From NCBI RefSeq assembly GCF_024125425.1, contig NZ_JAMXWN010000019.1, positions 1-41,775 on the forward strand: a DNA stretch of 41,775 nucleotides, read 5' to 3'. Positions 3,769 to 41,636 of the stretch are shown here, piece by piece. Made by a program: the position numbers and the translations under genes. Source of the DNA: Sporolactobacillus kofuensis (lineage in GTDB: Bacteria; Bacillota; Bacilli; Bacillales; Sporolactobacillaceae). Every line of letters starts with the position of its first letter. Positions within the stretch are counted from its first letter, which is position 1. The notes below the pieces were generated by a model. That model ran no database searches. It had not been told where the DNA came from and worked only from the letters and a program-made list of their open reading frames with translations.

Positions 3769-3856
3769 GAGAATGATTTGATACACAAAAAAATTAAGGT
3801 TCATTAAAAGGGTTGAGATATAGCTTGTCGAATTAAAAGTAAGGGAGATGATGTAT

Positions 3857-4093
3857 ATGTCAAAAGATAACTCAATTAAGCAGAAGTATGCGTATGAGTG
3901 GACGGAAATCGATTATATTTTAAAAAAGCTTGAAAACGAAACAATTTACGATCATAACGGAAATATAGATCGAGCTGCTGGATCATTGCATACTAATGGA
4001 GTGAATTTAAGAAAACAAATTGATTCATTGCTATTTAAAATCGATAATGACATTCCAGGTGACCTCGAAGGATTCAAGTTCCCTAACATTTGA
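3857..4093 (+). CDS. Hypothetical protein
   Basis: 78 aa from ATG 3857, nine bases after AAGGGAG (3841-3847). Helical, acidic-basic mixed composition; includes WTEIDYILKKLENETI and a C-terminal DLEGFKF segment. No membrane segment or cysteine motif. A short hairpin with CCCC/GGGG follows at 4106. I do not recognise a family; the gene is the last + strand gene before the ncRNA/late region. Confidence 0.5.
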   Translation: MSKDNSIKQKYAYEWTEIDYILKKLENETIYDHNGNIDRAAGSLHTNGVNLRKQIDSLLFKIDNDIPGDLEGFKFPNI

Positions 4094-4105
4094 ATAAATA
4101 TATAT

Positions 4106-4131
4106 CCCCGGTCAATAGCTGGGGGTTTGTT
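4106..4131 (+). terminator. Weak terminator after 3857-4093 gene
   Basis: CCCCGG and CTGGGG (one G-U) pair around TCAATAG, followed by a broken T run (TTTGTTAT). Confidence 0.5.
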
Positions 4132-4133
4132 AT

Positions 4134-4171
4134 GTAAAAAGGTGCCCGCGCATTCGCAGTCACCCTTTTTT
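4134..4171 (-). terminator. Terminator of the structured ncRNA
   Basis: On the - strand AAAAAGGGTG pairs with CACCTTTTT (one bulge) and ends in a U run. The stem is AT-symmetric, so it can also work on the + strand. Confidence 0.75.
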
Positions 4172-4608
4172 GTAATGAAGTATATAAAGTTAAACACATC
4201 TGGTAAATGCCCCAAGATGGGTACTGCCCCCATCATGCCATGGATCACTCCGATGACACCCACGTGAAAGGTGGGCTGCTTTCTGTTTGCATATTGGAAC
4301 ACACATTCAAACGGCTATCCGTCTGAATGATCACCAACCATTGTCACGCGCCGTCGGTCGTAGCGCGGTACGGTTTACGCTGTGATCAGCTGATCTTTGG
4401 CGCCCTTGCGATTTCAGGTCGCAGGTTTCCGCTAGCACAATTAACAAACCAGGCAAGGATTTGCACCCTGCATAGAAACCATCCATAAATGGTAAGCCTA
4501 GAAAGAATCGTTTGCTGCTGCTACGCTTACCTCGGCTCAGTTTCAATTCTTGCACCTAGCGTCTACCTATTCCACCACTGGTTCGCAGCTGTTTAAGTCA
4601 GCCCTGTT
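4135..4608 (-). ncRNA. Candidate large structured RNA with a tRNA-like 5' domain
   Basis: No convincing gene lies here, yet the block has its own extended -10 promoter (4615-4623) and a terminator (4134-4171), giving about 470 nt. Near the 5' end GAACCAG (4578-4584) pairs with CTGGTTT (4446-4452) as a 7-bp acceptor-like stem; a tRNA-Leu-like D arm (4559-4575) and a T arm with loop TGCAAAT (4453-4471) lie inside, but the anticodon region is replaced by an H-type pseudoknot (4544-4551 with 4503-4510; 4525-4531 with 4491-4497). Downstream: a 5-bp/7-nt anticodon-arm-like hairpin (4407-4423), an 11-bp hairpin (4304-4329), and hairpins at 4259-4275 and 4216-4234. Context (prophage, after the lysis genes) recalls phage ornate RNAs such as GOLLD and ROOL; identity untested. 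Confidence 0.7.
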
Positions 4609-4614
4609 ACTTAT

Positions 4615-4623
4615 ATTATACCA
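4615..4623 (-). promoter_or_regulatory. Extended -10 promoter of the ncRNA
   Basis: On the - strand the sequence reads TGGTATAAT, a perfect extended -10 (TGnTATAAT). No good -35 is present at 17 bp, which extended -10 promoters tolerate. Expected start about 4608. Confidence 0.65.
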
Positions 4624-4678
4624 CAATATGTATGGGCCCGGAGCAATCCGGGCTTATGATATATTGATGATCGTTATG

Positions 4679-5122
4679 TCAAGATTTAGGTGTTTGCTGT
4701 GCTTTGGCGTTCTCTAAGGCGTTCTGGATGCCTTTCTGAAGATCAGCTACATTGTACGTGTTAGATTGTGGAGCAGCTGCCGTAACAGTTGCTTGAATTT
4801 GTTTCTTAGCTTGATCTACAGCCACACCAAGAGCAGCGTGTAAATCAGTTACAGCAGCCTGAATGTAAGTTTTAACGCGCTCTGCATCCAATTTAATGTG
4901 GAATTTTGCCGCAAAAGCAACCAGAGCATCGGCAACAAACTGATACTTTGCAACGCCTAGACCTTTGCCATTGTAGATGCTCTCGGCAGCCTTAACAAGG
5001 GTCAAAGCATGTGACTTTAGAATTAAGTCAACCGCAAAAGAAAAGCCGTATTTGACGGTCGTACCGATCAATGCGGCAATAACTGCAAAGATTGCTGTAT
5101 CGAGATAATTTGAAATGTCCAT
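4679..5122 (-). CDS. Holin, LLH family
   Basis: 147 aa. One N-terminal hydrophobic segment (about residues 8-35, TAIFAVIAALIGTTV onward) is followed by a long, Ala/Lys/Gln-rich helical tail. This matches the phage LL-H type holin family (single N-terminal membrane helix, about 140-150 aa). Holins open or depolarise the membrane to time lysis. It is the last gene of the late operon, downstream of the endolysin and separated from it by a terminator (5212-5252). A palindrome at 4633-4655 follows the stop but has no T run. Confidence 0.8.
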   Translation of the reverse strand: MDISNYLDTAIFAVIAALIGTTVKYGFSFAVDLILKSHALTLVKAAESIYNGKGLGVAKYQFVADALVAFAAKFHIKLDAERVKTYIQAAVTDLHAALGVAVDQAKKQIQATVTAAAPQSNTYNVADLQKGIQNALENAKAQQTPKS

Positions 5123-7464: not shown

Positions 7465-8163
7465 CTACTGGTTAACATAATTAATTATTGCTTTCTTCCA
7501 CAAAAGATATCCTTCACCAGCTAAATGAATTCCATCTTTTGTCAAATATGGTTTGAGCTGATTTTTATTGTCAGCAAAAACCTTATAAAGATTTATATAC
7601 TTATATCCGAAACCACCAGCAATTTTTTGCAACTGGCTATTCACGTTTTTAATATCATTGTTCGTGAATATAAATGATGTATTTGTATCCGTGTTGACTG
7701 GTAGAATGCTTTGAACAAATACTTTTGTATTTGGGGATTTGTCTTTTATTATAGAGAGTATATATTTATAGTTTGATAAAAGTTTGTCTTTTGATACCCC
7801 TCTCTGCAAATCATTTATCCCTGCCATAATGAAAATTTTTTCTGGTTTACCTTTAGTTATTTCACCAATTCTAGACAGTATATTTCCAGTTGTATCATAA
7901 TCAATGCCACGATTTCTAATACTGCTATTGTTAAATAATTCATCCCATTCGCATCGCTGAGTAATACTGTCTCCAACAAACACTATATTGTCTTTTTTGA
8001 TTGGGAGAAGTTTAAATAAAGAAGTCCTGTGATAATGTGTTGCATAAATTACATCAATCTTACTTGTCGTATTAAATTTTTTTATTGCATATGCAGTGCC
8101 ACCAAGTACAAATATTAAATTAAAAATTAATGACAAAATAAGTAAGACTTTTAATTTTTTCAC
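7465..8163 (-). CDS. Exported SGNH/GDSL hydrolase
   Basis: 232 aa from GTG 8163. Residues 1-25 form a signal peptide or N-terminal anchor (LLILSLIFNLIFVLGG). SGNH blocks are intact: block I FVGDSITQR (Ser, about residue 67), the GIND block (MAGINDLQRG) and block V KDGIHLAGEGY with catalytic Asp and His. The family removes acyl or acetyl groups from sugars and lipids; an exported one may act on cell-wall or capsule O-acetyl groups. The gene is AT-rich compared with neighbours and sits between tail and lysis modules, suggesting a later acquisition. Substrate unknown. Confidence 0.8.
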   Translation of the reverse strand: MKKLKVLLILSLIFNLIFVLGGTAYAIKKFNTTSKIDVIYATHYHRTSLFKLLPIKKDNIVFVGDSITQRCEWDELFNNSSIRNRGIDYDTTGNILSRIGEITKGKPEKIFIMAGINDLQRGVSKDKLLSNYKYILSIIKDKSPNTKVFVQSILPVNTDTNTSFIFTNNDIKNVNSQLQKIAGGFGYKYINLYKVFADNKNQLKPYLTKDGIHLAGEGYLLWKKAIINYVNQ

Positions 8164-31647: not shown

Positions 31648-32511
31648 TCAAAATTCCAACGTACTTGATCTATGGTCTTTCGTATTTTTGAACACAATTT
31701 GAACAATGTTCCTACTGAACCTGCTGATTACTTTTCCGTCATACATTTTCTGTAGCTGATCACTTGTTAAATTAGTTGTGATGATCGTTGTCTTATCCTG
31801 TCTTGCTGTTGATATTGCTCGGAGAATACGATGCACAAAGTCTGATGCTTGCTTATCTGTGCCAATAGCACCTGTTTCCGCTCCTAAGTCGTCAATCACT
31901 AGATAGTCAACATTAGAAAGCAGATCAACGTACTTTTGCTCTGCATCACCTTTATTGATATCTCGATAACTGCCACGGATTTCACGAAGCATGTCATCAA
32001 AATCAATGAATAAGCACTGATATCCGGCATGTTCTGGATCGTTACTTTCGTCTACTGCGCGCATCAACCGTGATTTTCCTTTTTCGTTCATGTTACGAAG
32101 AATACTCATGGCTAAATGACTTTTTCCTGCTCCGGGTACGCCTGCTAACCATAAGTTCATGGTCTCACCCTGCATTAGTCGCTGAAAACACTTGATTGCT
32201 AGGTTTTTGTTATCTTCTTGCTCCTCTTGAGTGGATTCGTAGTTTCCAAATGTGGCATCAAGCAGCGTTTGATCAGGAATCAAACTTCTTTCTTCAAGTA
32301 CCCCGTATGTTTTTCTTAGGCGCTGCATACGATAGGCATTAAGGGACAACTCGTTGTTCTCTTTTTCTATGATTGCCCGTGCACATTCTGGACAAAATTC
32401 TCCGGCAGGTGTGTGCATCATGATGACTGGATGAGGATGTTTGTGGCATACGTTTTGGCTTTTAGAAATCGAAGATTGTATTTTTTCTGGCAAAGTTTCG
32501 GTTAGGTCCAT
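31648..32511 (-). CDS. DnaC-like helicase loader (AAA+ ATPase)
   Basis: 287 aa from ATG 32511 (GAGGGAG nine bases upstream), overlapping the replisome organizer gene by 50 nt. N-terminal Cys/His cluster (CHKHPHPVIMMHTPAGEFCP, then EC) suggests a zinc site. AAA+ motifs: Walker A LAGVPGAGKSHLA (about residue 125), Walker B DYLVIDDLGAETG and sensor-like TIITTNLTSDQL. It loads the host replicative helicase at the phage origin together with the organizer. Confidence 0.92.
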   Translation of the reverse strand: MDLTETLPEKIQSSISKSQNVCHKHPHPVIMMHTPAGEFCPECARAIIEKENNELSLNAYRMQRLRKTYGVLEERSLIPDQTLLDATFGNYESTQEEQEDNKNLAIKCFQRLMQGETMNLWLAGVPGAGKSHLAMSILRNMNEKGKSRLMRAVDESNDPEHAGYQCLFIDFDDMLREIRGSYRDINKGDAEQKYVDLLSNVDYLVIDDLGAETGAIGTDKQASDFVHRILRAISTARQDKTTIITTNLTSDQLQKMYDGKVISRFSRNIVQIVFKNTKDHRSSTLEF

Positions 32512-33334
32512 CGGTCATCGCTCCCTCATTTAAATAATTCTCAAAGTGGCGATCAGCAAATAACGTTTCAGGCTTCAAATTGTGCTTCATTTTATTATCT
32601 TTGAACCACTGAGCCTTTTTTAGATCAATGACATTCTTACAATCAGTAACCGTATAGCCTTCTTTTAATCTTTCAGCTATCTTTCGTTCACGATACTTGC
32701 AGCCTTTTGTTTCTGCTGCTATTGGAAGTTTTGAATTTGTTTGTTCGTTAAAATAAGTGATTATTTCTCTAACTTCCTGCATATATTTTTCAGAGAAAGA
32801 TATTTTATCTTTTCTTTTTTTCTCTTTATCTCTTTCTTTATCTCTTTCTTTATCTCTTTCTTTATCTATATCTATATCTATATCTCTTTCTATATCTGTA
32901 TCGTCACTCAACGTCACAGTGACGTCACTTTTTGTTTTATCGATCTGCTTTTTCCTTTCCCTATAGGCTTTTTGCCGTTTTCGATGAAGCAATTTTGCTC
33001 GTTCCATACCCTCGATATTCTGATAAATGTCCCAATTTTTAATATGAATTGCTCCATCTTCCATAACTTCGATCATTTGGTATCGTTTGAACGTTTCAAG
33101 AGCCAACCGAACCGTATTCAAAGGGCGATTGAAGATTGTTGCCATTTCTTCTGTTGTCATTGGAACATTTTCAGTCAGCATAATGAATCCACCGGCATTT
33201 GCTCTTCCTGCATAGGCAAGCAATTTCACCCAGACAACTATGATTGTGTCTGCATCTGGCAATGATTCAATCAATCGGATCTTTTCATTGTCAAACATGT
33301 CTGTTTTTAATTTGATCCAGGTTATTTCGGACAT
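32462..33334 (-). CDS. Phage replisome organizer (DnaD-like initiator)
   Basis: 290 aa from ATG 33334 (GAGGGGG nine bases upstream; longer frame rejected). Residues 1-120 are the phage replisome-organizer N-terminal winged helix (MSEITWIKLKTDMFDNEKIR; LLAYAGRANAGGFIMLTENV). Residues 150-190 are very low complexity, repeating Asp-Lys-Glu-Arg, encoded by tandem DNA repeats. The C-terminal DnaD-like part includes YMQEVREIITYFNEQTNSKL. It opens the origin and recruits the loader encoded next. Confidence 0.9.
   Translation of the reverse strand: MSEITWIKLKTDMFDNEKIRLIESLPDADTIIVVWVKLLAYAGRANAGGFIMLTENVPMTTEEMATIFNRPLNTVRLALETFKRYQMIEVMEDGAIHIKNWDIYQNIEGMERAKLLHRKRQKAYRERKKQIDKTKSDVTVTLSDDTDIERDIDIDIDKERDKERDKERDKEKKRKDKISFSEKYMQEVREIITYFNEQTNSKLPIAAETKGCKYRERKIAERLKEGYTVTDCKNVIDLKKAQWFKDNKMKHNLKPETLFADRHFENYLNEGAMTDGPNRNFARKNTIFDF
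32825..32934. repeat. Tandem repeats inside the initiator gene; candidate phage origin
   Basis: Three perfect 12-bp copies of TTTATCTCTTTC (32825-32860) are followed by TTTATC and several TATATC copies to about 32896. Next comes a dyad: GTCAC occurs repeatedly, and ACGTCAC-A-GTGACGT (32911-32925) is a perfect 7-bp inverted repeat. Many Firmicutes phages place the origin within the initiator gene. Confidence 0.55.
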
Positions 33335-33338
33335 GAAA

Positions 33339-33668
33339 TCATGCCCCCTCATCCCATTGATCTTTGTAGTAGTTAGCACCGTACCGTTCTTCAAACTTCC
33401 GTTGCCATTCATTGATCAATCTTTGGTGCGTCTGCACGTTTTGATGACATATCCAACAGAGCAGCACTCCGTTGGTATACACTCCTCGTCCACCTTGTCC
33501 ACGTCCTTTCACGTGGTGGATCTGCAAGCCTACATGACTTCCACACATTTGGCATTCATCATTGTCTCGTTCTCTTATTTGATTCCGTACACGGTTGCTG
33601 AACTCTGATCTAGCACCCCATGTTGGCTTTAATCTCTTATGCTTCGGTTTTGGCACGGATATCCCCAT
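33339..33668 (-). CDS. HNH endonuclease
   Basis: 109 aa from ATG 33668, 8 bases after GAGGGAG. The HNH core is clear: RDNDECQMCGSHVGLQIHHV and VLLCWICHQNVQTH, with two zinc CxxC knuckles and the His-His pair. Many phages carry an HNH protein beside the terminase for packaging; here it lies in the replication module instead, so it may serve in recombination or be a mobile endonuclease. Confidence 0.87.
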   Translation of the reverse strand: MGISVPKPKHKRLKPTWGARSEFSNRVRNQIRERDNDECQMCGSHVGLQIHHVKGRGQGGRGVYTNGVLLCWICHQNVQTHQRLINEWQRKFEERYGANYYKDQWDEGA

Positions 33669-33673
33669 TGGTT

Positions 33674-33829
33674 TCACTCCCTCTTTTCACATACAATCCA
33701 GTAAGGACGATGTATTCTGATTGGTTTTAAGTCCGGGTCCATCTTTCTGATATAGTTTGCAACTACTTCTTTGAATTGGTCACTTGGTAATGACCAAAAG
33801 TTATAAGGAATGCTGATGTGGTATTCCAT
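33674..33829 (-). CDS. Small hypothetical protein
   Basis: 51 aa from ATG 33829, overlapping the upstream stop by one base (TGATG). Reads MEYHISIPYNFWSLPSDQFK and PIRIHRPYWIVCEKRE. Ordered alpha-beta appearance, no family. Its stop abuts the HNH gene's SD. Confidence 0.6.
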   Translation of the reverse strand: MEYHISIPYNFWSLPSDQFKEVVANYIRKMDPDLKPIRIHRPYWIVCEKRE

Positions 33830-34767
33830 CAGAATGGAAGATCATCGTCGCTAATATCAATTGGCTTACCATCATTAGCGAATGGATCTTTGCTTTCTGC
33901 AGATGGCTGTGTTTCCACTGGTTTTGGATCTTCTTTTTTCTGCTCTGTTTGTGTGCGATTGCTTTCAGCAGTTTTCTTAGAAGCATCGAAAATGATATTG
34001 ATTGCCTTTTTGATAATCGGATCAGTTCGATCAGTCCCTGCTAACCATTCAAGATAGCTTCTTTCAGAACGGAACAAATCTTTCAAACTTTTACCTTTGT
34101 GCTTTCCAAATTTAAGCTGAATATTTCCAGCATCTTCAACCGTCATGTTCTCTGTATGTTCAGCTTGTGCAAACTGTTTCATGTCCTCAATATCTTGAGT
34201 GAAGATTTCTGACAGGCTAGCTACGGTCAATGTTGCATCAATCTGAGCACGTTTCTTCGCCATTTTTAGAATCGTGTTGGCAAGGCTATAGGTGTCGTCA
34301 TTTTCGATACGGTACTTCTTTTGGCCATAATTATTTGTGCGTGACTTTAGTGTTGAAAGGTCTATTCCTGACGGAACATCTTCTTCTTTAACCAGTCGCC
34401 AACGGTACTTATCCTCTTTAGAGTTGCAACTTCCTAATCCTTCTGTGATCTTTTGACCACTTTTTAACAGCGTGCACTTGAACGTGAAAGCAAAAATGCC
34501 TTTTTCATAGTCCTCAATCTTTTCCACAAGGTCATATTCACTTGTGATGCCAAACAACATGAGGACCTTTTCTGCTCCTGGTTTGAGAAGCGTTGGCTTG
34601 CCTGTCCCAGGTATAACGTCATAATCATGACCAGACTTCAATGTGCTTTGGATAACCGTTTGGAGACGCGCAATCTTACTTAATGTTCCTTGGACGGAAC
34701 CAACGTCAATTTCATCTATGAGTGACAGTGGATTTGCTTGTGGCTGTAATTCTGTTTCTGACATCAT
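33829..34767 (-). CDS. Putative ssDNA-binding/annealing recombination protein with SSB-like tip
   Basis: 312 aa from ATG 34767 (AAGGGGAG ten bases upstream; ATG 34788 overlaps the preceding stop). The N-terminal two thirds (QSTLKSGHDYDVIPGTGKPT; LKPGAEKVLMLFGI; LANTILKMAKKRAQIDATLT) belongs to a Firmicutes phage family found with Gp157 and replication genes. Residues about 215-265 (LKFGKHKGKSLKDLF; YLEWLAGTD) resemble the exonuclease-X C-terminal module. The protein ends DISDDDLPF, the acidic tip by which SSB binds replication partners. No separate SSB gene is seen, so it may fill that role; that is inference. Confidence 0.7.
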   Translation of the reverse strand: MMSETELQPQANPLSLIDEIDVGSVQGTLSKIARLQTVIQSTLKSGHDYDVIPGTGKPTLLKPGAEKVLMLFGITSEYDLVEKIEDYEKGIFAFTFKCTLLKSGQKITEGLGSCNSKEDKYRWRLVKEEDVPSGIDLSTLKSRTNNYGQKKYRIENDDTYSLANTILKMAKKRAQIDATLTVASLSEIFTQDIEDMKQFAQAEHTENMTVEDAGNIQLKFGKHKGKSLKDLFRSERSYLEWLAGTDRTDPIIKKAINIIFDASKKTAESNRTQTEQKKEDPKPVETQPSAESKDPFANDGKPIDISDDDLPF

Positions 34768-34784
34768 ACTAATCAATCTCCCCT

Positions 34785-35270
34785 TCATCTGATTTGTAAT
34801 GACTTAGTTTTTTGGAGATAAGCACCCTTGACGTTCTTTCCTTCAGACGTTTTTAAAAGTGCCGTCAAACCGCTCTTATCAATCGTTTCCACAGTTTTGA
34901 TAAATTGTACTGGTATCATATTTTCATCTGTTATAACAGCGTGCGGAGCGTTAAATCGTGTGCTTACCGTGAATTTATGGCCCTTAACTTTTTGAATGTT
35001 TGCTTTTTCAAGTGACTCAAGAAGATGTTGTTTTAATCTCTTCACATTGTTTTCATAGGCTTGTTTTCGTTTGGTTAACCGATCAATTTCTGACTTCAAT
35101 CCGGTCACATCTTTCTCGATTTCCTTTATGACAGCCGCTGTTGATTCTGCTTTAACTTCAATCGCATCATGGATACTTTCTAAAGTGTCGGATAAAAGAT
35201 CGCTATCAACGTCTTCAGCAATGTCTAGAAGCTGTCTGTATTTGTCAGTCAAATCGTACATCGTAGGCAA
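34785..35270 (-). CDS. Siphovirus Gp157 family protein
   Basis: 161 aa, TTG 35270 preferred because AAAGGGG lies nine bases upstream (ATG 35261 would lack an SD). Layout matches Gp157: helical N terminus (MYDLTDKYRQLLDIAEDVDS), long coiled coil (EIEKDVTGLKSEIDRLTKRK) and a C-terminal beta part (KGHKFTVSTRFNAPHAVITD). First described in Streptococcus phage Sfi, where overexpression gives phage resistance. Partners the recombination protein next door. Confidence 0.88.
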   Translation of the reverse strand: MPTMYDLTDKYRQLLDIAEDVDSDLLSDTLESIHDAIEVKAESTAAVIKEIEKDVTGLKSEIDRLTKRKQAYENNVKRLKQHLLESLEKANIQKVKGHKFTVSTRFNAPHAVITDENMIPVQFIKTVETIDKSGLTALLKTSEGKNVKGAYLQKTKSLQIR

Positions 35271-35271
35271 T

Positions 35272-35359
35272 TTGATTAACCCCTTTCGCCCATGCTATAA
35301 TGGGAACATAGTTTAATTTGATTTGTACAAGACCTCCACCCTCACGCGGTGGTCTTTTT
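35272..35359 (+). ncRNA. Candidate short antisense RNA with own promoter and terminator
   Basis: A + strand promoter reads TTGATT (35272-35277), 18 bp, TATAAT (35296-35301) with TG one base upstream. A + strand terminator follows: CCACC (35336-35340), loop CTCACGC, GGTGG (35348-35352), TCTTTTT. The product, about 35308-35359, would be 50 nt and antisense to the junction of the 56-aa gene (35342-35512) and the Gp157 leader. Read from motifs only. Confidence 0.45.
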
Positions 35360-35512
35360 GCTTTCCTGAAATGCTTCAATGAATGTTTCATAGCTTCTTG
35401 AATCCCGAAACTTGAATACCGGTCGTCCTCTACCGTCATAGCCAATACTTCCACCGTGTTCGACCAATAATCTCTGTGCTGTCATGTCTTGCATGAATGG
35501 ATAGTTACGCAT
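35342..35512 (-). CDS. Small hypothetical protein
   Basis: 56 aa from ATG 35512 with the strong SD GAGGAGG. Reads NYPFMQDMTAQRLLVEHGGS then VFKFRDSRSYETFIEAFQES. Looks like a folded alpha-beta domain. No family. Its 3' end is covered by the candidate antisense RNA. Confidence 0.6.
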   Translation of the reverse strand: MRNYPFMQDMTAQRLLVEHGGSIGYDGRGRPVFKFRDSRSYETFIEAFQESKKTTA

Positions 35513-35524
35513 CTTGTTTCCTCC

Positions 35525-35683
35525 TCACGTGTGATTGATTTCATCCTGCATTTCTTCCAACACCGCGTCCATCTCGTTCAGCTTGTCCTGCAACAAATCA
35601 CGTTCTGCACGCTTGTTCTCAAACTCTTCAACCAAACATGATTTGCTCTTTGGCTCAGGATCTCTAAATCTGCTTAGTAGCAT
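35525..35683 (-). CDS. Small coiled-coil protein
   Basis: 52 aa from ATG 35683 after GGAAGGAGG; the longer open frame runs through the hairpin at 35706-35761 and is rejected. Residues 18-50 form an acidic coiled coil (VEEFENKRAERDLLQDKLNE). No family recognised. Confidence 0.6.
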   Translation of the reverse strand: MLLSRFRDPEPKSKSCLVEEFENKRAERDLLQDKLNEMDAVLEEMQDEINHT

Positions 35684-35705
35684 ATCTATCCTCCTTCCTG
35701 GTGTC

Positions 35706-35761
35706 CTCATACCCACCGCCAGACGTACCGGGGAGTTAGCACGCCTGGCGCTAGGTATGAG
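35706..35761. repeat. Long interrupted inverted repeat, 56 bp
   Basis: Outer arms CTCATACC/GGTATGAG (8 bp), middle CGCCAG/CTGGCG (6 bp), inner CGT/ACG, with a 14-nt loop. No T run, so not a terminator. It lies in the leader of the 52-aa gene, in a stretch (35684-35911) without a convincing gene. It could be an RNA element or protein-binding site. Confidence 0.6.
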
Positions 35762-35911
35762 TGAGTAAAACCGATACCTGCGCATAAACAAATATGTGAT
35801 TGGCGAAATAGCGATTAAGAAGAAAGGAGACTGTTCACCTCTTTTCATTTTTTATTTGACTTTCACGCCTATCAGGAAGATGTAGGGGGTTATTCCACTC
35901 CTTCTATTGAT

Positions 35912-36136
35912 TTAGCGTGTGGCTGCCATCTTCAGTACCGTGACACCACTCACGGTAGACACCGGATGAACCGGTGTTTCGGCTTGTCGAGGAGGAAGTA
36001 ACCTCAACGATCTGACCTTGCTGTTTGTTTTTGTTGGTGGTATCTGAAAACGGAACACGCCATATGTGTGACTTTCGAGAAAAAGTACATGTTTGAATTT
36101 TTCATAGCTTTTCAGCCAATCATCATAATCAATCAA
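35912..36136 (-). CDS. Hypothetical protein with uncertain boundaries
   Basis: 74 aa if started at TTG 36136, seven bases after AAGGGAGG. N-terminal part looks coding (DYDDWLKSYEKFKHVLFLES; TYGVFRFQIPP). The last third is encoded by two strong hairpins (35937-35977), so either the end is low-quality coding or the structures are superimposed. No family. Confidence 0.45.
   Translation of the reverse strand: MIDYDDWLKSYEKFKHVLFLESHTYGVFRFQIPPTKTNSKVRSLRLLPPRQAETPVHPVSTVSGVTVLKMAATR
35937..35977. repeat. Two adjacent perfect hairpins
   Basis: ACCGTG/CACGGT (35937-35942/35951-35956) and ACACCGG/CCGGTGT (35959-35965/35971-35977) lie two bases apart. Neither has a T run on either strand. They sit over the 3' part of a weakly supported gene. 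Confidence 0.6.
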
Positions 36137-36218
36137 TCGATGACCTCCCTTGTCCATTCCATCTCCATGCGGTAAAATAGACGTATATTCTAATGATTGA
36201 TAAGCATTTAACAGATCC

Positions 36219-36329
36219 TCATTGCCGTGAGGATTTTCTTTTTTCCCACCATTCATCTGCGAACGCGTAAATCGTAAGTACAACCATCGCTCCGACAATC
36301 GCCATCCATGCTCCTACGGTCAGCCCCAT
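36219..36329 (-). CDS. 36-aa single-pass membrane protein
   Basis: From ATG 36329, nine bases after AGAGG, overlapping the previous gene by 10 nt. Almost the whole chain is one membrane helix (GAWMAIVGAMVVLTIYAFA) followed by DEWWEKRKSSRQ. Such tiny membrane proteins are common in phage early operons; a role in host interference is possible but unproven. Confidence 0.6.
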   Translation of the reverse strand: MGLTVGAWMAIVGAMVVLTIYAFADEWWEKRKSSRQ

Positions 36330-36625
36330 GGGAACGTACCTCTGAACTCAACAACCTTCACCGACTTTAGCCGTTGCAAAAGCTCTACATACTGTTTAGT
36401 AGTCATGACTACATCATCAAGTTCCTTGTTGTAAGCCATTTGCTTGATTGATTTAAGGCTTTTCAGCATGTCACTTTCATGCTCAATTGCGTCATCAATA
36501 TTTCCAAGAGCAAGGTCTAATTCAATTCGATGCTGCAGGATAGCGATGCAATCTAATTCTTTTTTCAACATCTGTTGATCGTTCAGACGGACCTTTGCTT
36601 TGGCTTGCTCAGTGAATGTGTTCAT
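36320..36625 (-). CDS. Hypothetical helical protein
   Basis: 101 aa, ATG overlapping the upstream stop (ATGA). Mostly helices: QMLKKELDCIAILQHRIELD and DVVMTTKQYVELLQRLKSVK. Coiled-coil-like; no family. Likely coexpressed with the XRE-type regulator upstream. Confidence 0.6.
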   Translation of the reverse strand: MNTFTEQAKAKVRLNDQQMLKKELDCIAILQHRIELDLALGNIDDAIEHESDMLKSLKSIKQMAYNKELDDVVMTTKQYVELLQRLKSVKVVEFRGTFPWG

Positions 36626-37116
36626 TCGCTTTCCTCCTCACGCTGGTTTTTTGATTCATGTTCCTTTGCCATCCGTTTCCCATCTAGGCCAAAAGTTTCT
36701 TCGATCTTCCCTTGATTGACTAAAAGCCACTCCAGAGCATCACGATTTTCATGCCATAGCCGAACACCGACTTCTTTTTTGACTTTTTTACCGAACATTG
36801 GGACTTTTGAGAAGAAATCCATAAGTTCTGATGTCTCCTTCATCACGCGTTCTTTTATTGCTGCAGGGTCTAAGCTGAATCGTGGTCCATCATTCAGTAC
36901 ATTAGGAACAAAACCAGCTGTCCGTTCTTCTCCGACTTCCAAGGCTAGTGTCCAATCTAGATTAGAAATATTGGCATCGTAGGAAGCTGGAAACTCATAC
37001 AATCCTCTTTCTGCCTTTGAAATTAACGCCCGATCAACAGGAATTTGTTCAGCTATTTGGCGTTGACTAAGATTTGATTTAAGCCGGTAGTCAAGCATCT
37101 TTTCACCAATCGACAT
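36622..37116 (-). CDS. XRE-type helix-turn-helix regulator
   Basis: 164 aa from ATG 37116, eight bases after AGGGAGG. Residues 4-50 are an XRE HTH (GEKMLDYRLKSNLSQRQIAE, then RALISKAERGLYEFP). The C-terminal part (FSKVPMFGKKVKKEVGVRLW) has no known domain. A perfect 8-bp palindrome sits just upstream (37134-37160), a likely operator for it. Probably an early-phase regulator. Confidence 0.75.
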   Translation of the reverse strand: MSIGEKMLDYRLKSNLSQRQIAEQIPVDRALISKAERGLYEFPASYDANISNLDWTLALEVGEERTAGFVPNVLNDGPRFSLDPAAIKERVMKETSELMDFFSKVPMFGKKVKKEVGVRLWHENRDALEWLLVNQGKIEETFGLDGKRMAKEHESKNQREEESE

Positions 37117-37133
37117 TTGATCCACCTCCCTTC

Positions 37134-37160
37134 TTCACAACACACATATTTAGTTGTGAA
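37134..37160. promoter_or_regulatory. Operator-like palindrome before the XRE gene
   Basis: TTCACAAC (37134-37141) and GTTGTGAA (37153-37160) are perfect 8-bp arms with an 11-bp spacer, adjacent to the SD of the XRE gene. Fits a dimeric HTH protein. Confidence 0.6.
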
Positions 37161-37253
37161 TCGGTTTCATGGTTTAATAGAATAGTAGTCAGATAAGGCT
37201 ACACGGTTATCGGTTATCCCTTACTTGCCGGATCTGGTAAATCCGGCTTTTTT
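37154..37253 (+). ncRNA. Candidate + strand short RNA between early genes
   Basis: A weak + strand promoter (TTGTGA 37154-37159, 18 bp, TAGAAT 37178-37183) is followed by a strong + strand terminator: GCCGGAT (37227-37233), ATCCGGC (37241-37247), TTTTTT. The RNA (about 37190-37253) would oppose the early operon. The terminator clearly points along + although genes on both sides are on -. Confidence 0.4.
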
Positions 37254-37437
37254 AAATAACACTTTGCAATTCCTGATGTTCTTTCCATTCATCAAGTGAA
37301 GATTTAGAAAAACGGACATTGCGACCGATACGCCAGTGTGGTATTTCTCCTCGTCGTGCCATGCGGTAAATTGTTTCTTTGTGGCACCCGATATAATCAG
37401 CAGCTTCTTGGGCTGTCATTCGTTCTGAATCATGCAT
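37252..37437 (-). CDS. Excisionase-type HTH_17 DNA-binding protein
   Basis: 61 aa from ATG 37437 (GAAGGTG six bases upstream). MTAQEAADYIGCHKETIYRM followed by EIPHWRIGRNVRFSKSSLDE is the classic MerR/excisionase-like HTH_17 module. Such proteins bend DNA as excisionases or regulate early genes. Given an integrase at the far end, an excisionase role is plausible; not proven. Confidence 0.82.
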   Translation of the reverse strand: MHDSERMTAQEAADYIGCHKETIYRMARRGEIPHWRIGRNVRFSKSSLDEWKEHQELQSVI

Positions 37438-37618
37438 TTTGATCACCTTCAAACGTCATAAGTCCATTTTTCAATGCGTATTCAGTTGGTTGGCCCTGCT
37501 CGTTTATCATGTTGTATTCAACCATTTTTTCGAATACTTCATCTTTGTTCATTTCAATGCCTGATTTTTTAAGATTGGAAATGAATTGATCTATATTTTC
37601 CGGATAGTTTCTCGTCAT
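37430..37618 (-). CDS. Hypothetical early protein
   Basis: 62 aa, ATG overlapping the antirepressor stop. Reads NIDQFISNLKKSGIEMNKDE and VFEKMVEYNMINEQGQPTEY, helical. No family. Tightly packed between antirepressor and HTH_17 genes. Confidence 0.6.
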   Translation of the reverse strand: MTRNYPENIDQFISNLKKSGIEMNKDEVFEKMVEYNMINEQGQPTEYALKNGLMTFEGDQNA

Positions 37619-38415
37619 TTTGCCATCTCCTTCGGCACCGATACACCAAACTTAATGGCGAATTCCTTGACGACAGCTACATAAATTTCAATAAGGCGTT
37701 TGTCATCGGCAATAACATCAAGTTTGCTGAGATTGTCTCTTTTCGACTTATTGACACCTTCATCAGCCATACGACGACGTTTGTTTGTGAGCCGAGTTTC
37801 AAGGTTGAATCCACCACGACGTTCAACTTCTTTGTAAATGTCATGACGAACTGTTTGATGAGCTTCAAAGCCTCCAAGATTGCGAGCCATTCGGTTTATT
37901 AGATTAGTAGAGTCCTTTCGCCATTGAATTGAATTGAGAGCGACGACATTCTTGATTCCATCAACCTTTATAGCAAGTTCATTTGTTCGGAGTTCGTTAT
38001 TTGCAACGGCTTTAAAAAGGTTTCCGAACATCTGCATTTCTGGACTTAAATTTTTAAAGTTGTTTTTAACAATCTCTGATTTTCCTGTTCTAAGATTTTC
38101 AAGAAGTTCATAAACCCAGTCGTAAAATTCATCAGCTTTTGGTTGACGACTCCAACGGCAAATTTCATAAATACCTTTAGCGGAATAAACCGTTGTTTCA
38201 TATGCTTTCCCATCAGTTCCCCTCAGAACGAGGGTATCTGAAAACTTGTCTAATCTGTTTTGATGTTTGGAATGGATGTTATCAATTGCTTTTTGTGGTT
38301 CTGAATATTCAAGTGCTTCACCAATTTGTTTTCTTGTCATTACAAAATCTCTTTCAGTTTCGTAAATGTCGCAAGTAATAGCTCCAAACTTTGTTGACTT
38401 AATGAGATCAGCCAT
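37615..38415 (-). CDS. Phage antirepressor (Bro-N plus ORF6C)
   Basis: 266 aa. N-terminal Bro-N-like domain, residues 10-110 (GEALEYSEPQKAIDNIHSKH; YSAKGIYEICRWSRQPKADE, FYDWVYELLENLR). C-terminal region (ARNLGGFEAHQTVRHDIYKE; ETRLTNKRRRMADEGVNKSK) matches ORF6C. Proteins of this build bind phage repressors or DNA and promote lytic growth. Second gene of the early operon; overlaps the Cro-like stop by one base. Confidence 0.88.
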   Translation of the reverse strand: MADLIKSTKFGAITCDIYETERDFVMTRKQIGEALEYSEPQKAIDNIHSKHQNRLDKFSDTLVLRGTDGKAYETTVYSAKGIYEICRWSRQPKADEFYDWVYELLENLRTGKSEIVKNNFKNLSPEMQMFGNLFKAVANNELRTNELAIKVDGIKNVVALNSIQWRKDSTNLINRMARNLGGFEAHQTVRHDIYKEVERRGGFNLETRLTNKRRRMADEGVNKSKRDNLSKLDVIADDKRLIEIYVAVVKEFAIKFGVSVPKEMAK

Positions 38416-38648
38416 TATATCGCCTCCTGTTTATAATTCTTTGTATCTAAGAACTTTTCATCAAAAAAATATGCCGTTGGTACTTTAAGCGCCTGACAAA
38501 TCTTTTCGTATTCATCAATTTTTATAGCCTGTTGGTTGGTCATCATTCTTGAAAACTTAGAATCATCAATATTTGAACGATCAGCGACGAATCCAAATTT
38601 CAAACCGTTTTCTTCGATGAATTGGCGAATACGATTATTGATTTTCAT
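38415..38648 (-). CDS. Cro-like XRE regulator
   Basis: 77 aa from ATG 38648 with GGAGGTG. HTH spans IRQFIEENGLKFGFVADRSN to SKFSRMMTNQQAIK. First gene of the early operon behind a consensus promoter (TTGACA 38716-38721, 17 bp, TATATT 38693-38698 on -). An extra operator-like TCTAAGAA lies in its 3' end near 38447. Expected to repress the repressor gene. Confidence 0.85.
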   Translation of the reverse strand: MKINNRIRQFIEENGLKFGFVADRSNIDDSKFSRMMTNQQAIKIDEYEKICQALKVPTAYFFDEKFLDTKNYKQEAI

Positions 38649-38671
38649 TGTATCACCTCCGTGTTCTTAAT

Positions 38672-38785
38672 TTCTAAGAACTCTATATACATAATATAAT
38701 TCTTATTATCTAAGATGTCAACATTATATTCTAATTTTCTAGGAATATTTTCTTTAATGCTAGGAAAATGGATATAATCTAAGAA
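38672..38785. promoter_or_regulatory. Immunity operator region with divergent promoters
   Basis: Five related sites: TTCTAAGAA 38672-38680, ATCTAAGA 38708-38715, TTCTAGGAA 38737-38745, TGCTAGGAA 38758-38766, ATCTAAGAA 38777-38785. The early promoter (- strand: TTGACA, 17 bp, TATATT) contains site 2 in its spacer and site 1 downstream of its -10. The repressor -10 TATAAT (38773-38778) overlaps site 5. Layout mirrors a lambda-type switch. Confidence 0.85.
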
Positions 38786-38799
38786 ATGAGGTGAGACAA

Positions 38800-39228
38800 A
38801 TGTCTGTTCTATCTGATAGATTAAAAGAATCAAGGGAAAGAAAGAATTTAAAACAAACACAGGTTAAAGAAAGAACAAATATCAACAATAAAACGCTGAG
38901 TGGATATGAAAATGGCGTTAGCATTCCTGATCCAGATACATTGATGAAACTTGCAGATTTATATGATGTTTCCGTTGATTATTTATATGGAAGGACAGAC
39001 AAACGTCATTATTATGATCTCACCAAAAAAGACGAAAAAGACATCGCCAAAGACATGGAAAATCTGGTTAATGAATTAAACAGCGATAGTGCCCTTGCCT
39101 TCGATGGTGAACCAATGGATGAAGAAACAAAGCGCCTTGTCGCACAAGCCATTGAATCTAATCTTCGAATGGCAAAACAAATAGCAAAAAAGAAATTCAC
39201 CCCTAAAAAGTATCGTAACGAGGAGTGA
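38800..39228 (+). CDS. CI-like XRE repressor (ImmR type)
   Basis: 142 aa from ATG 38800 (AGGTGA upstream). HTH: LSDRLKESRERKNLKQTQVK, TLSGYENGVSIPDPDTLMKL, VSVDYLYGRTDK. C-terminal 70 residues are helical and charged with no S24 peptidase, so RecA-stimulated self-cleavage is not expected. The next gene encodes an ImmA protease, as in ICEBs1 and phi105-type switches, where ImmA cleaves the repressor. Maintains lysogeny. Confidence 0.9.
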   Translation: MSVLSDRLKESRERKNLKQTQVKERTNINNKTLSGYENGVSIPDPDTLMKLADLYDVSVDYLYGRTDKRHYYDLTKKDEKDIAKDMENLVNELNSDSALAFDGEPMDEETKRLVAQAIESNLRMAKQIAKKKFTPKKYRNEE

Positions 39229-39233
39229 TCTTC

Positions 39234-39647
39234 TTGGATTATGTCTCTCGATGTGTAAAGGATACTGTCACAACGTACAAAACTAGCAATCCGTTTGAGA
39301 TTGCTAGTCAAAAAGGAATTATCATTACCGAGTCACCACTTGGTGAAACACTCGGATTTTACATGATGAGACGAAGAACGCAATTTATCACTCTCAACTC
39401 AGATATGAACCACCACATTAAACGCTTCGTCTGCGCCCATGAGCTCGGGCATGCAATTGAATACCCCTTATGCAATACATCATTTCTTAGAAAAACTACA
39501 CTTACATCAATCAATAAAATTGAAGTACAAGCAAATAAGTTCGCAACCCTATTATTGGCTTTTAATCACAACTTTGAACCATGGATGACAAAACGCCATT
39601 TTTTACAATTATGTGGTATCCCAATTGAAATGGAACGGTTTATTTGA
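39234..39647 (+). CDS. ImmA/IrrE-type metalloprotease
   Basis: 137 aa from TTG 39234, eight bases after GAGGAG. Zinc protease motif FVCAHELGHAIEYP (HEXXH) and a downstream EVQANKFATLLL that supplies the third ligand. ImmA proteins cleave their cognate repressor to allow induction. The gene follows the repressor with a short gap and overlapping alternative start, so they are cotranscribed. Confidence 0.92.
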   Translation: MDYVSRCVKDTVTTYKTSNPFEIASQKGIIITESPLGETLGFYMMRRRTQFITLNSDMNHHIKRFVCAHELGHAIEYPLCNTSFLRKTTLTSINKIEVQANKFATLLLAFNHNFEPWMTKRHFLQLCGIPIEMERFI

Positions 39648-39736
39648 AGTTGATTAAAAAAGTGATTATGAAATAAACGTTTGTTTCTCCAACAATGGAG
39701 TTACATATATAAAATGTTTTAAGGGGAGAAGTTATA

Positions 39737-40375
39737 ATGGCAAAAGAAAAAGTAAAGAAACCAATTTTTAAACGTTGGTGGTTTTGGGTACTAGTTGTTA
39801 TCATTGTTATATCAATTGGTGCAAATATGGGTGGAAATGACGAATCATCAAAGGGAACTAGTCAAAAAACATCGGCCGACAATGCCAAAAAAGACACTCC
39901 AAAAAAGGAAACTTCTAAAAAGGAATCAAAGCCAGCAAAGAAAGAGAAAAAATCATATGGCATTGGTGACAAAATAAAAGTCGGAGATATGGAATATACC
40001 ATTTTGAGCAAAAAGACAGCAACACAAGTTGGACCTTCTGCTCTTCCTGATAAAGCTAACGGTAAATTTATAGTAATTGAATTATCACTAAAAAATAATG
40101 GTAATGAGAAAGTAACTGTTGATTCAAGTTTCTTCAAATTGAAACGTGGATCAAAGACATATGAAGCCGCTGCTGATGCTAGTATGTCAGCAAATCAGGG
40201 TGAAGACGGAAATATTGATAATAGTTTTTTCATGCAGGATCTTAACCCAGATTCTGAAATGAAAGGAAAAGTTGTGTTTGATGTTGCTCCAGAAGTTGCT
40301 AATGCAAAAGACCTTGTTCTCCAAGTACAGACTGGATCATGGGGAACACAAACTGGAAACGTTAATTTGAAATAA
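39737..40375 (+). CDS. Membrane-anchored DUF4352 protein (lysogenic conversion)
   Basis: 212 aa from ATG 39737 (AAGGGGAG upstream). One N-terminal membrane helix (WWFWVLVVIIVISIGANMGG), a Lys/Ser-rich linker (residues 38-75) and an extracellular DUF4352 beta-sandwich (YTILSKKTATQVG; FIVIELSLKNNGNEKVTVDS; FFKLKRGSKTYEAAAD). Expressed from the lysogeny side, between immunity and integrase, a common spot for superinfection-exclusion or surface genes. Role here unproven. Confidence 0.82.
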   Translation: MAKEKVKKPIFKRWWFWVLVVIIVISIGANMGGNDESSKGTSQKTSADNAKKDTPKKETSKKESKPAKKEKKSYGIGDKIKVGDMEYTILSKKTATQVGPSALPDKANGKFIVIELSLKNNGNEKVTVDSSFFKLKRGSKTYEAAADASMSANQGEDGNIDNSFFMQDLNPDSEMKGKVVFDVAPEVANAKDLVLQVQTGSWGTQTGNVNLK

Positions 40376-40392
40376 TAAACAAAAATTTTATT

Positions 40393-40415
40393 AGCCGCTC
40401 ATGCGGCTTTTCTTT
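40393..40415 (+). terminator. Terminator of the lysogeny operon
   Basis: AGCCGC, loop TCAT, GCGGCT, then TTTTCTTT. Confidence 0.85.
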
Positions 40416-40426
40416 CACACTTTAAA

Positions 40427-40440
40427 AGAACATATATTCG
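40427..40440 (+). promoter_or_regulatory. SOS-box-like site before the integrase
   Basis: AGAACATATATTCG resembles box 2 of the YolD promoter (AGAACATTTGTTCG) but has A instead of G in the second half (ATTC). It lies 7 bp before the integrase SD. LexA binding is possible but weak. Confidence 0.35.
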
Positions 40441-40460
40441 TAAAACAGGAGGTACTATTT

Positions 40461-41636
40461 ATGTCCTACGTTGAACCTCGTGGTAAAGGAAAATTTAGAT
40501 TAAACGTCACGATTGGTACAGATGAAAAAGGCTATGCCATCCGTGAACGAAAAACAGTAACAGCCAAGAACATAACAGAAGCACGAAAAATTCTTTCTGA
40601 TTTTGAAGCAGAAGTCAATTCAGGACATTATCTCAAGCCAACAGACATCACGTTAAAACAATTCCATCCTAAATGGAAAGAATATATTGAAGGCGCTCAA
40701 ACTCCGGCAACACGGGCAAGTAATGAACAAATTATGGACAACCGTATTCTTCCTAAATACGGTCATATGAAGTTGTCTACAATTAAACCGATGCATATTT
40801 TCAACTTCGTGAATGAATTGAAAAAAGATGGCCGACGCATGGATAAGAAAAAAGGAAAACTCAGTGCTTCTACAGTGCGCAACTGCTACAAAACATTTCA
40901 TAGCATTTTGCAATGTGCTGTTAACCTGGGAGTGATTAAGGAAAACCCTGCTGATGGCGTTAAACCTCCGAAACTTGGCAAGAGCCAAACGGACGTGTAT
41001 TCAAAAGAAGAAATTATCGCTATGATTGAAGCGCTTGAACACGTACAGCAAAGATGGAAACTATTAATCATGATCGCCTTCACAGTCGGTGCACGTGAGG
41101 GTGAAATTTCTGCGCTTGAGTGGAAACATATTGACACAAAAAATCACACGATCCGTATTGAGCAATCACTATCTGATGAGTTTGGATTGTCCCTTAAAAA
41201 TACAACAAAGACAGATCGTGATCGAATAGTTAAGATGCCAACAGCCCTCTCTGATCTGTTCGACGAATATCATAAACGCAAAACTAAAGTAAAGAACATC
41301 GTCCCCTATGACATTGGCGACGGAAAAGTGCATCTGTTTATCTTCTCTGATCTATATGGAAAACCGATAAGACCAGACAGTATTTCACAATGGTGGCGTC
41401 GTTTTACCAAAAAATATAAATTGCGCCATATACGGTTCCATGATCTGCGCCATACATCAGCAACCTTCCTGATTAACGAAAATGTTCAATCAAAAATTAT
41501 CAGCAGCCGTTTGGGGCATTCAAACATTCAAACAACCATGAATGTATATGGTCACTTTCTTGAAGAAGCAGATGAAGGCGCAGTCGAGCATTTTGATCAG
41601 TTCCTTCAAGAGAAAAAAGCAAAAGGAAAGCAATAA
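40461..41636 (+). CDS. int: Tyrosine integrase
   Basis: 391 aa from ATG 40461 with AGGAGG; the longer frame was rejected. N-terminal arm-binding domain (SYVEPRGKGKFRLNVTIG), core-binding SAM-like domain (residues 60-160, QFHPKWKEYIEGAQTPATRA), catalytic domain with Arg (VGAREGEISALEWK), HDLRHTSATFLI (His-x-x-Arg) and LGHSNIQTTMNVYGHF with the nucleophile Tyr. It integrates and excises the prophage, presumably with the HTH_17 protein. Arm-type repeats start four bases after its stop. Confidence 0.95.
   Translation: MSYVEPRGKGKFRLNVTIGTDEKGYAIRERKTVTAKNITEARKILSDFEAEVNSGHYLKPTDITLKQFHPKWKEYIEGAQTPATRASNEQIMDNRILPKYGHMKLSTIKPMHIFNFVNELKKDGRRMDKKKGKLSASTVRNCYKTFHSILQCAVNLGVIKENPADGVKPPKLGKSQTDVYSKEEIIAMIEALEHVQQRWKLLIMIAFTVGAREGEISALEWKHIDTKNHTIRIEQSLSDEFGLSLKNTTKTDRDRIVKMPTALSDLFDEYHKRKTKVKNIVPYDIGDGKVHLFIFSDLYGKPIRPDSISQWWRRFTKKYKLRHIRFHDLRHTSATFLINENVQSKIISSRLGHSNIQTTMNVYGHFLEEADEGAVEHFDQFLQEKKAKGKQ

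Follow-up and report, generated by a model that had tools for sequence, protein, structure and literature searches.

The window, that is, the whole stretch of 41,775 nucleotides from Sporolactobacillus kofuensis analysed here, most probably (with a probability of roughly 0.9) encodes a non-decoding tRNA mimic of a prophage, belonging to a family of pseudoknotted tRNA-like RNAs of phages. The domain keeps the upper half of tRNA-Leu: the acceptor, the T stem, the D loop, the T loop, and the U before the T stem, which in tRNA is the partner of A15. Interleaved helices replace the anticodon arm, and CCA is not encoded. The family is large and strongly conserved, is present in many phages and prophages, and is apparently unnamed. 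No description of such a family was found among the titles and the beginnings of abstracts in the open PMC literature, and an earlier description is still possible. An earlier note on this DNA had suggested a new class of RNA built on a tRNA scaffold with a pseudoknot, and this suggestion is supported by the covariation of the acceptor and T stems, the match to the covariance model R1, and the crossing helix S2 recognized in two sets of sequences.

The window is one whole contig and a prophage with genes for integrase, terminase, portal, endolysin, and holin. The RNA block is located on the minus strand, with the holin gene at 4679-5122 on one side and a small convergent gene at 3848-4093 on the other. 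The block follows the lysis genes, carries a terminator of its own, and has no late genes downstream. At the contig start (1-45, plus strand), the 3' part of a tRNA was found with 30 bits, and the integrase gene (40401-41636) lies at the opposite end; the two are likely to mark the attachment site. The same prophage contains a Type II hammerhead ribozyme (35917-35984, minus strand, 60.7 bits). It also includes an actin-like (ALP/ParM-type) gene at 940-1935 on the plus strand, a possible sign of a phage-plasmid life style.

All elements of the RNA described below are on the minus strand. The tRNA-like domain, which is the whole conserved unit, occupies 4445-4585 and is matched by R1 at 4441-4587 with 72.3 bits and the E-value 1.4e-21. 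The acceptor-like stem is composed of the 5' strand CGAACCAG (4578-4585) and the 3' strand CTGGTTTG (4445-4452), which pair at all eight positions, including one G-U pair; the 3' strand is followed by TTAAT, not CCA. The tRNA-Leu-type D arm TGGTGGAATAGGTAGACGC (4559-4577) has a D stem of three pairs, one of them G-U (4575-4573 with 4561-4559), and together with the preceding base it is identical to the host tRNA-Leu(CAA) at 17 of 20 letters. The T arm (4453-4471) contains a 6-bp stem (4471-4466 with 4458-4453) and the 7-nt loop UGCAAAU, in which G, not U, is at tRNA position 55. Stacked on each other, the acceptor and T stems would give 13 bp in the family and 14 bp in the window, compared with 12 bp in an ordinary tRNA.

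The spacer from the D arm to the T arm is 91 nt and contains three helices of seven pairs each. The 5' strand of S1 (4545-4551) pairs with its 3' strand at 4503-4509. In S2, GAAACTG (4538-4544) pairs with TGGTTTC (4475-4481) with two G-U pairs. In S3, GGTAAGC (4525-4531) pairs with 4491-4497 through Watson-Crick pairs only. S3 is an extra helix in the window, and with S1 it makes the pseudoknot named in the earlier note. The D arm, the T arm with a 7-nt loop, and the central interleaved helices described there are all present, and the acceptor-like stem reported as 7 bp is extended to 8 bp in the window.

Upstream of the domain, an extended -10-like motif TGGTATAAT is recognizable in the sequence at 4615-4623. 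The motif claimed as a promoter exists, but the promoter scan did not pick it up. Relatives show no enrichment of extended -10 sites in their upstream flanks, and the idea of a sigma-type promoter ahead of them was rejected as unsupported. Downstream, a 3' extension with several predicted hairpins (4171-4444) has no relative found, and the claimed terminator corresponds to an intrinsic-terminator-like hairpin at 4136-4170, for which the same scan lists a shorter stem. The absence of a credible gene also agrees with the present analysis, as the 74-aa frame at 4331-4555 matches nothing in Pfam or PHROGs. The 486 nt including the terminator showed a folding z of -2.82, and 1 of 100 shuffles was as good. 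This value indicates RNA structure beyond chance, and the membership of the tRNA-like part in a covarying family is far stronger evidence.

BLAST with the whole RNA against phages, plasmids, and 147 + 299 genomes revealed only the terminator region, in two genomes of the same genus. A search with a near-exact D-arm pattern gave no relative, and synteny via the holin gene gave no copy at L010, L011, and L012, with the holin loci L008 and L009 left out. Since BLAST found no relatives, the architecture was used as a search pattern instead, in which a spacer of 72-102 nt separates the tRNA-Leu D arm from a T arm with two free loop bases. This pattern was found in at least 120 viral stretches of IMG/VR, 57 of the window's subtype among the matches listed. 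The 7-bp acceptor is not required by the pattern; nevertheless, a perfect one was present at the expected place in 95 of the 120 listed matches, against 5.9 in flank swaps (maximum 10 in 50 trials). Two subtypes were distinguished. In subtype B, to which the window belongs, the T loop is UGCAAAU or near it, the D loop is AUAGG in all 57 listed matches and in the window, and all seven acceptor pairs are formed in 45 of the 57 listed matches (swaps 2.3, maximum 5). In subtype A, most of the T loops contain UUC, and AUUGG is seen in 58 of 63 among the matches listed. Several subtype A matches are probably neighbouring ordinary tRNAs.

Covariation across homologues, which had been proposed as a check of the RNA, was analyzed with the alignment A2 of 52 non-redundant subtype B domains, from which the window was left out. 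Its structure consists of a 7-bp acceptor, a 3-bp D stem, and a 6-bp T stem. In A2, 97.4% of cells are paired; shuffles reach 74.9%, and slid controls are paired at 37-48%. The covariation score of 0.626 compares with 0.166, and two-sided changes number 201 versus 51 in shuffles. Two-sided changes are distributed over all seven acceptor pairs and the outer four of the six T-stem pairs, so that both stems do covary. No variation is seen in A2 at the D stem, which is thus uninformative, or at the two inner T pairs; most of this is owed to the pattern, which fixes most of the D arm and the T loop, so that their invariance is partly built in. The letters of the D and T arms are not independent evidence, because the window itself had inspired the pattern by which the training set was collected. 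Independent of the pattern are the acceptor, the outer T pairs, and the A and U preceding the T stem, which the pattern does not fix and which are conserved in 49 and 52 of the 52 domains, respectively.

The covariance model R1 was built from the A2 relatives and therefore represents subtype B only, with the window outside the training set. R1 gave 72.3 bits to the window versus 21.3-29.4 bits to the five tRNA-Leu genes of the host. Among 397 genomes of the order, scanned with strict filters and with eight candidates scored per genome, seven reached at least 59 bits, and the other listed matches were at most 39.6 bits. Thus, about 2% of these species carry the domain.

A decayed or intron-bearing tRNA-Leu gene would account for the D arm that matches the host tRNA-Leu so closely, and ARAGORN calls a tRNA in 52 of the 120 listed pattern matches, in many of which the enlarged spacer is taken as an intron. 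The compensatory changes that keep the acceptor and T stems speak against this origin, as do the recurrence of the design across dozens of dissimilar phages, the 6-bp T stem, and the missing CCA and anticodon arm; moreover, the window has no match to a group I intron. At the expected place, CCA is absent in all 55 genome copies obtained by the pattern scan described below and in 50 of 52 viral ones. A tRNA-Leu gene of this kind is consequently a very improbable explanation. The domain resembles tRNA-Leu (RF00005) in the sequence of the D arm, the 7-nt T loop, the acceptor closing both arms, and the U before the T stem, and differs from it in the crossing helices that occupy the place of the anticodon arm, the 6-bp T stem, the lack of CCA, the G for U at position 55, and the 91-nt spacer. 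Charging with leucine was considered and dropped, as the base following the acceptor is not conserved.

The helices that replace the anticodon arm were characterized in the family. S2 was defined as a helix across the spacer whose 3' strand ends 6 nt before the GG of the T arm, with an energy of at most -8 kcal/mol. In a set of 57 sequences (52 viral, four genome loci, and the window), S2 was found in 35, versus a mean of 6.9 and a maximum of 13 in 100 trials of partner swaps; the other 22 have no S2 at this threshold. Apart from the offset 6, only 7 and, weakly, 8 surpass the swaps. Among 35 further genome loci, dissimilar to the first set, 19 have S2 at an energy of at most -7.5, versus 4.0 in swaps with a maximum of 10 (200 trials). 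In subtype A, S2 is seen at the offset 5 in 14 of 44 sequences (swaps 5.0, maximum 10). S1, which crosses S2, surpasses all 100 swaps at four thresholds, by one each time (24 of 38, with a maximum of 23 in swaps).

The S2 of the window is at the offset 7, one base off the family position, and none is formed at the offset 6. An unconstrained pseudoknot search, noisy in its comparison with shuffles, gave p <= 0.05 in 8 of 59 sequences of subtype A and 14 of 56 of subtype B. A tighter search gave 4 of 59 and 16 of 56, and a shuffle test with fixed anchors gave 10 of 59 and 14 of 56, where 3 are expected. For the window alone, the pseudoknot or S2 had p values of 0.05, 0.31, and 0.18 in the three shuffle tests. 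As these are not clearly significant, the case for the pseudoknot and S2 rests on the family.

The earlier note had also considered one of the large ornate phage RNAs, GOLLD or ROOL, and recommended a search with their models and that of tRNA. At the gathering score, Rfam gave no match in the RNA block. With the E-value relaxed to 10, only five plus-strand matches at chance level (E 0.31-8.9) were found in 3900-4800, and none of them is tRNA, tmRNA, GOLLD, ROOL, or group I intron (RF00028). Neither a tRNA nor a tmRNA was recognized in the block by ARAGORN. A distant form of the GOLLD or ROOL cage RNAs, whole or in part, would fit the size near 470 nt and the phage origin, and PMC12286853 describes GOLLD and ROOL as phage-borne structured RNAs often located near tRNA arrays, with linkers of GOLLD that can hold tRNAs. 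ROOL is indeed present in 5 of the 41 subtype B loci scanned with Rfam (L119, L080, L231, L238, and L223), three of which are near-copies; these 41 loci were pooled from three sets contributing 8 (of 20), 15, and 18. But wherever either RNA is matched in the 41 loci, it lies outside the domain; 36 of the loci have neither in the DNA scanned, and the conserved unit is smaller than these RNAs. The probability that the RNA of the window is such a cage RNA is close to negligible. In L080 (667-1389), ROOL is followed by the domain with a gap of about 10-11 nt. The viral contig L119 (599-3767) contains ROOL, a tmRNA match, many tRNAs, and the domain, and L231 and L238 look alike.

Another known RNA, rliG (RF02415) from Listeria prophages, overlaps the 5' part of the domain in L102, L199, and L201, whereas the window has no rliG match. 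The Listeria phage A118 (L264) has rliG at 7655-8026, but no domain was found in 32000-40834 of A118. The presence of rliG without the domain in A118 and its running into the domain in L199 and L201 look like modular exchange. According to PMC3556495, rliG is an RNA of prophage A118 among those raised in macrophages. As the A118 region is without the domain, the induction of rliG is no direct evidence for expression of the domain.

The earlier note regarded the RNA as a unit of about 470 nt. The conserved unit is in fact only about 140 nt, and the tail of about 270 nt downstream of it is regarded as lineage-specific. No relative of 4440-4185 was found by BLAST in phages, plasmids, and 147 + 299 genomes or by a further search, and the 3' part gave at E = 10 only two 24-base chance matches, to coliphages. 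The 256 nt of 4185-4440 alone have a folding z of -1.92, slightly better than shuffles. The anticodon-arm-like hairpin (4423-4407) and the perfect 6-bp match (4561-4556 with 4435-4430) pointed out in the earlier note do exist. The hairpin and one arm of the match lie inside the 3' extension, and the switch proposed from them is unsupported, since both depend on a 3' part for which no relative was found.

A pattern scan of genome contigs from 84,980 species revealed 55 loci. The titles of 49 name Bacillota groups, including Paenibacillus, Listeria, Lactobacillaceae, Clostridia, and others, and six do not. At least six of the seven acceptor pairs are formed in 50 of the 55, and all 55 show R1 scores of at least 58.6 bits. 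In the annotated Listeria phages L199 and L200, the terminase genes lie on one side of the domain and a gene for a sigma factor or an endonuclease on the other, and in the third, L201, a hypothetical gene is annotated across part of the domain. The domain is also found within tRNA arrays in L206 (with 40 tRNA genes), L231, L238, and L223. Some copies are multiple: L060 (12082-12391) has two domains in tandem, 11 nt apart, at the end of a tRNA array, and L128 has four R1 matches, two of them above 59 bits. In L248 (5495-5751) and L127 (5315-5571), a second domain is seen about 190 nt past the first, and a tRNA (33.3 bits) is nested in the middle of this second domain. L099 (1522-1951) has a group I intron (72 bits) with a subtype A domain inserted after the P7 5' strand.

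The neighbourhood of the copies bears on two cis-acting explanations. The domain could be a processing signal, a tRNA-like punctuation cut by RNase P and RNase Z that separates or stabilises neighbouring messages. A ribosome-binding-site-plus-start pattern within 60 nt of the downstream flank was counted in 21 of 86 flanks (a count without control), and in 24 of 52 domains the base before the 7-bp acceptor is U. As raw counts with no background rate, a transcriptional activator family is matched by 10 of the 95 proteins encoded upstream, and of the 103 encoded downstream, 2-4 each match terminase and HNH families; these neighbours suggest an early-to-late junction in part of the phages. The location of the copy in the window, behind the lysis genes, is a different one. 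For such a signal, a bare cloverleaf top would be enough and the conserved crossing helix is unneeded; furthermore, the window has no credible gene between the domain and the terminator. A processing signal is therefore a possible but rather unlikely account of the domain. A cis-acting transcription element is an improbable one; it would be, for example, an antitermination RNA that acts on RNA polymerase at downstream terminators, as the put sites of phage HK022 do. Terminator-like sites are present within 300 nt downstream of 30 of 86 copies, versus 0-2 in five shuffles, and L199 and L200 have the domain before terminase genes. An element of this type leaves the tRNA elbow geometry unexplained, and the copy in the window, with its own terminator behind the lysis genes, has no late genes to act on.

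Other RNAs that imitate tRNA resemble the domain only in part. In tmRNA (RF00023), a tRNA-like top half is joined to pseudoknots; the domain of the window is without an ARAGORN or Rfam match to it, lacks CCA, and contains a full tRNA-Leu D arm. The bacterial Y RNAs of the YrlA type are noncoding tRNA mimics that keep the elbow, but the window has no match to them in Rfam, whose library includes YrlA, and the acceptor ends are open here. The tRNA-like structures of plant viruses belong to RNA genomes. They represent virus-borne tRNA mimicry (PMC5723415), as does the element here, which is a DNA phage element without CCA.

The explanation preferred here combines the tRNA mimic with recognition by host enzymes and an action in trans, and taken as a whole it stands at about even odds. 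The domain would be transcribed and fold into an L-shaped elbow. Host enzymes that recognize the elbow and the acceptor of tRNAs, foremost RNase P and RNase Z, would process or bind it. While the phage develops, the domain would act in trans, serving as a decoy or scaffold of tRNA shape whose specific function resides in the variable pseudoknot end. The lineage-specific tail follows the domain in this phage. The conserved crossing helix suggests more than a cleavage mark, and the terminator in the window, with no credible gene before it, favours a trans-acting RNA; the position of the domain close before genes in other loci keeps the cis reading alive. The trans-acting mechanism itself is tentative, its chance being somewhat below even. 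A more specific version is speculative and unlikely: that the anticodon-less phage mimics are trans decoys for host proteins gripping the elbow or the acceptor, including defence nucleases that cut tRNA, that the fast-evolving pseudoknot tunes the target, and that the mimic is fused here to a private domain of about 270 nt.

Few designs of tRNA mimicry by RNA are known. The present family adds one with strong covariation and no CCA, which no Rfam family covers in the scans made here. R1 makes the annotation of the family and the choice of a copy for deletion easy, and the family provides a handle on the late development of phages, on tRNA-processing enzymes, and on tRNA-directed defence.
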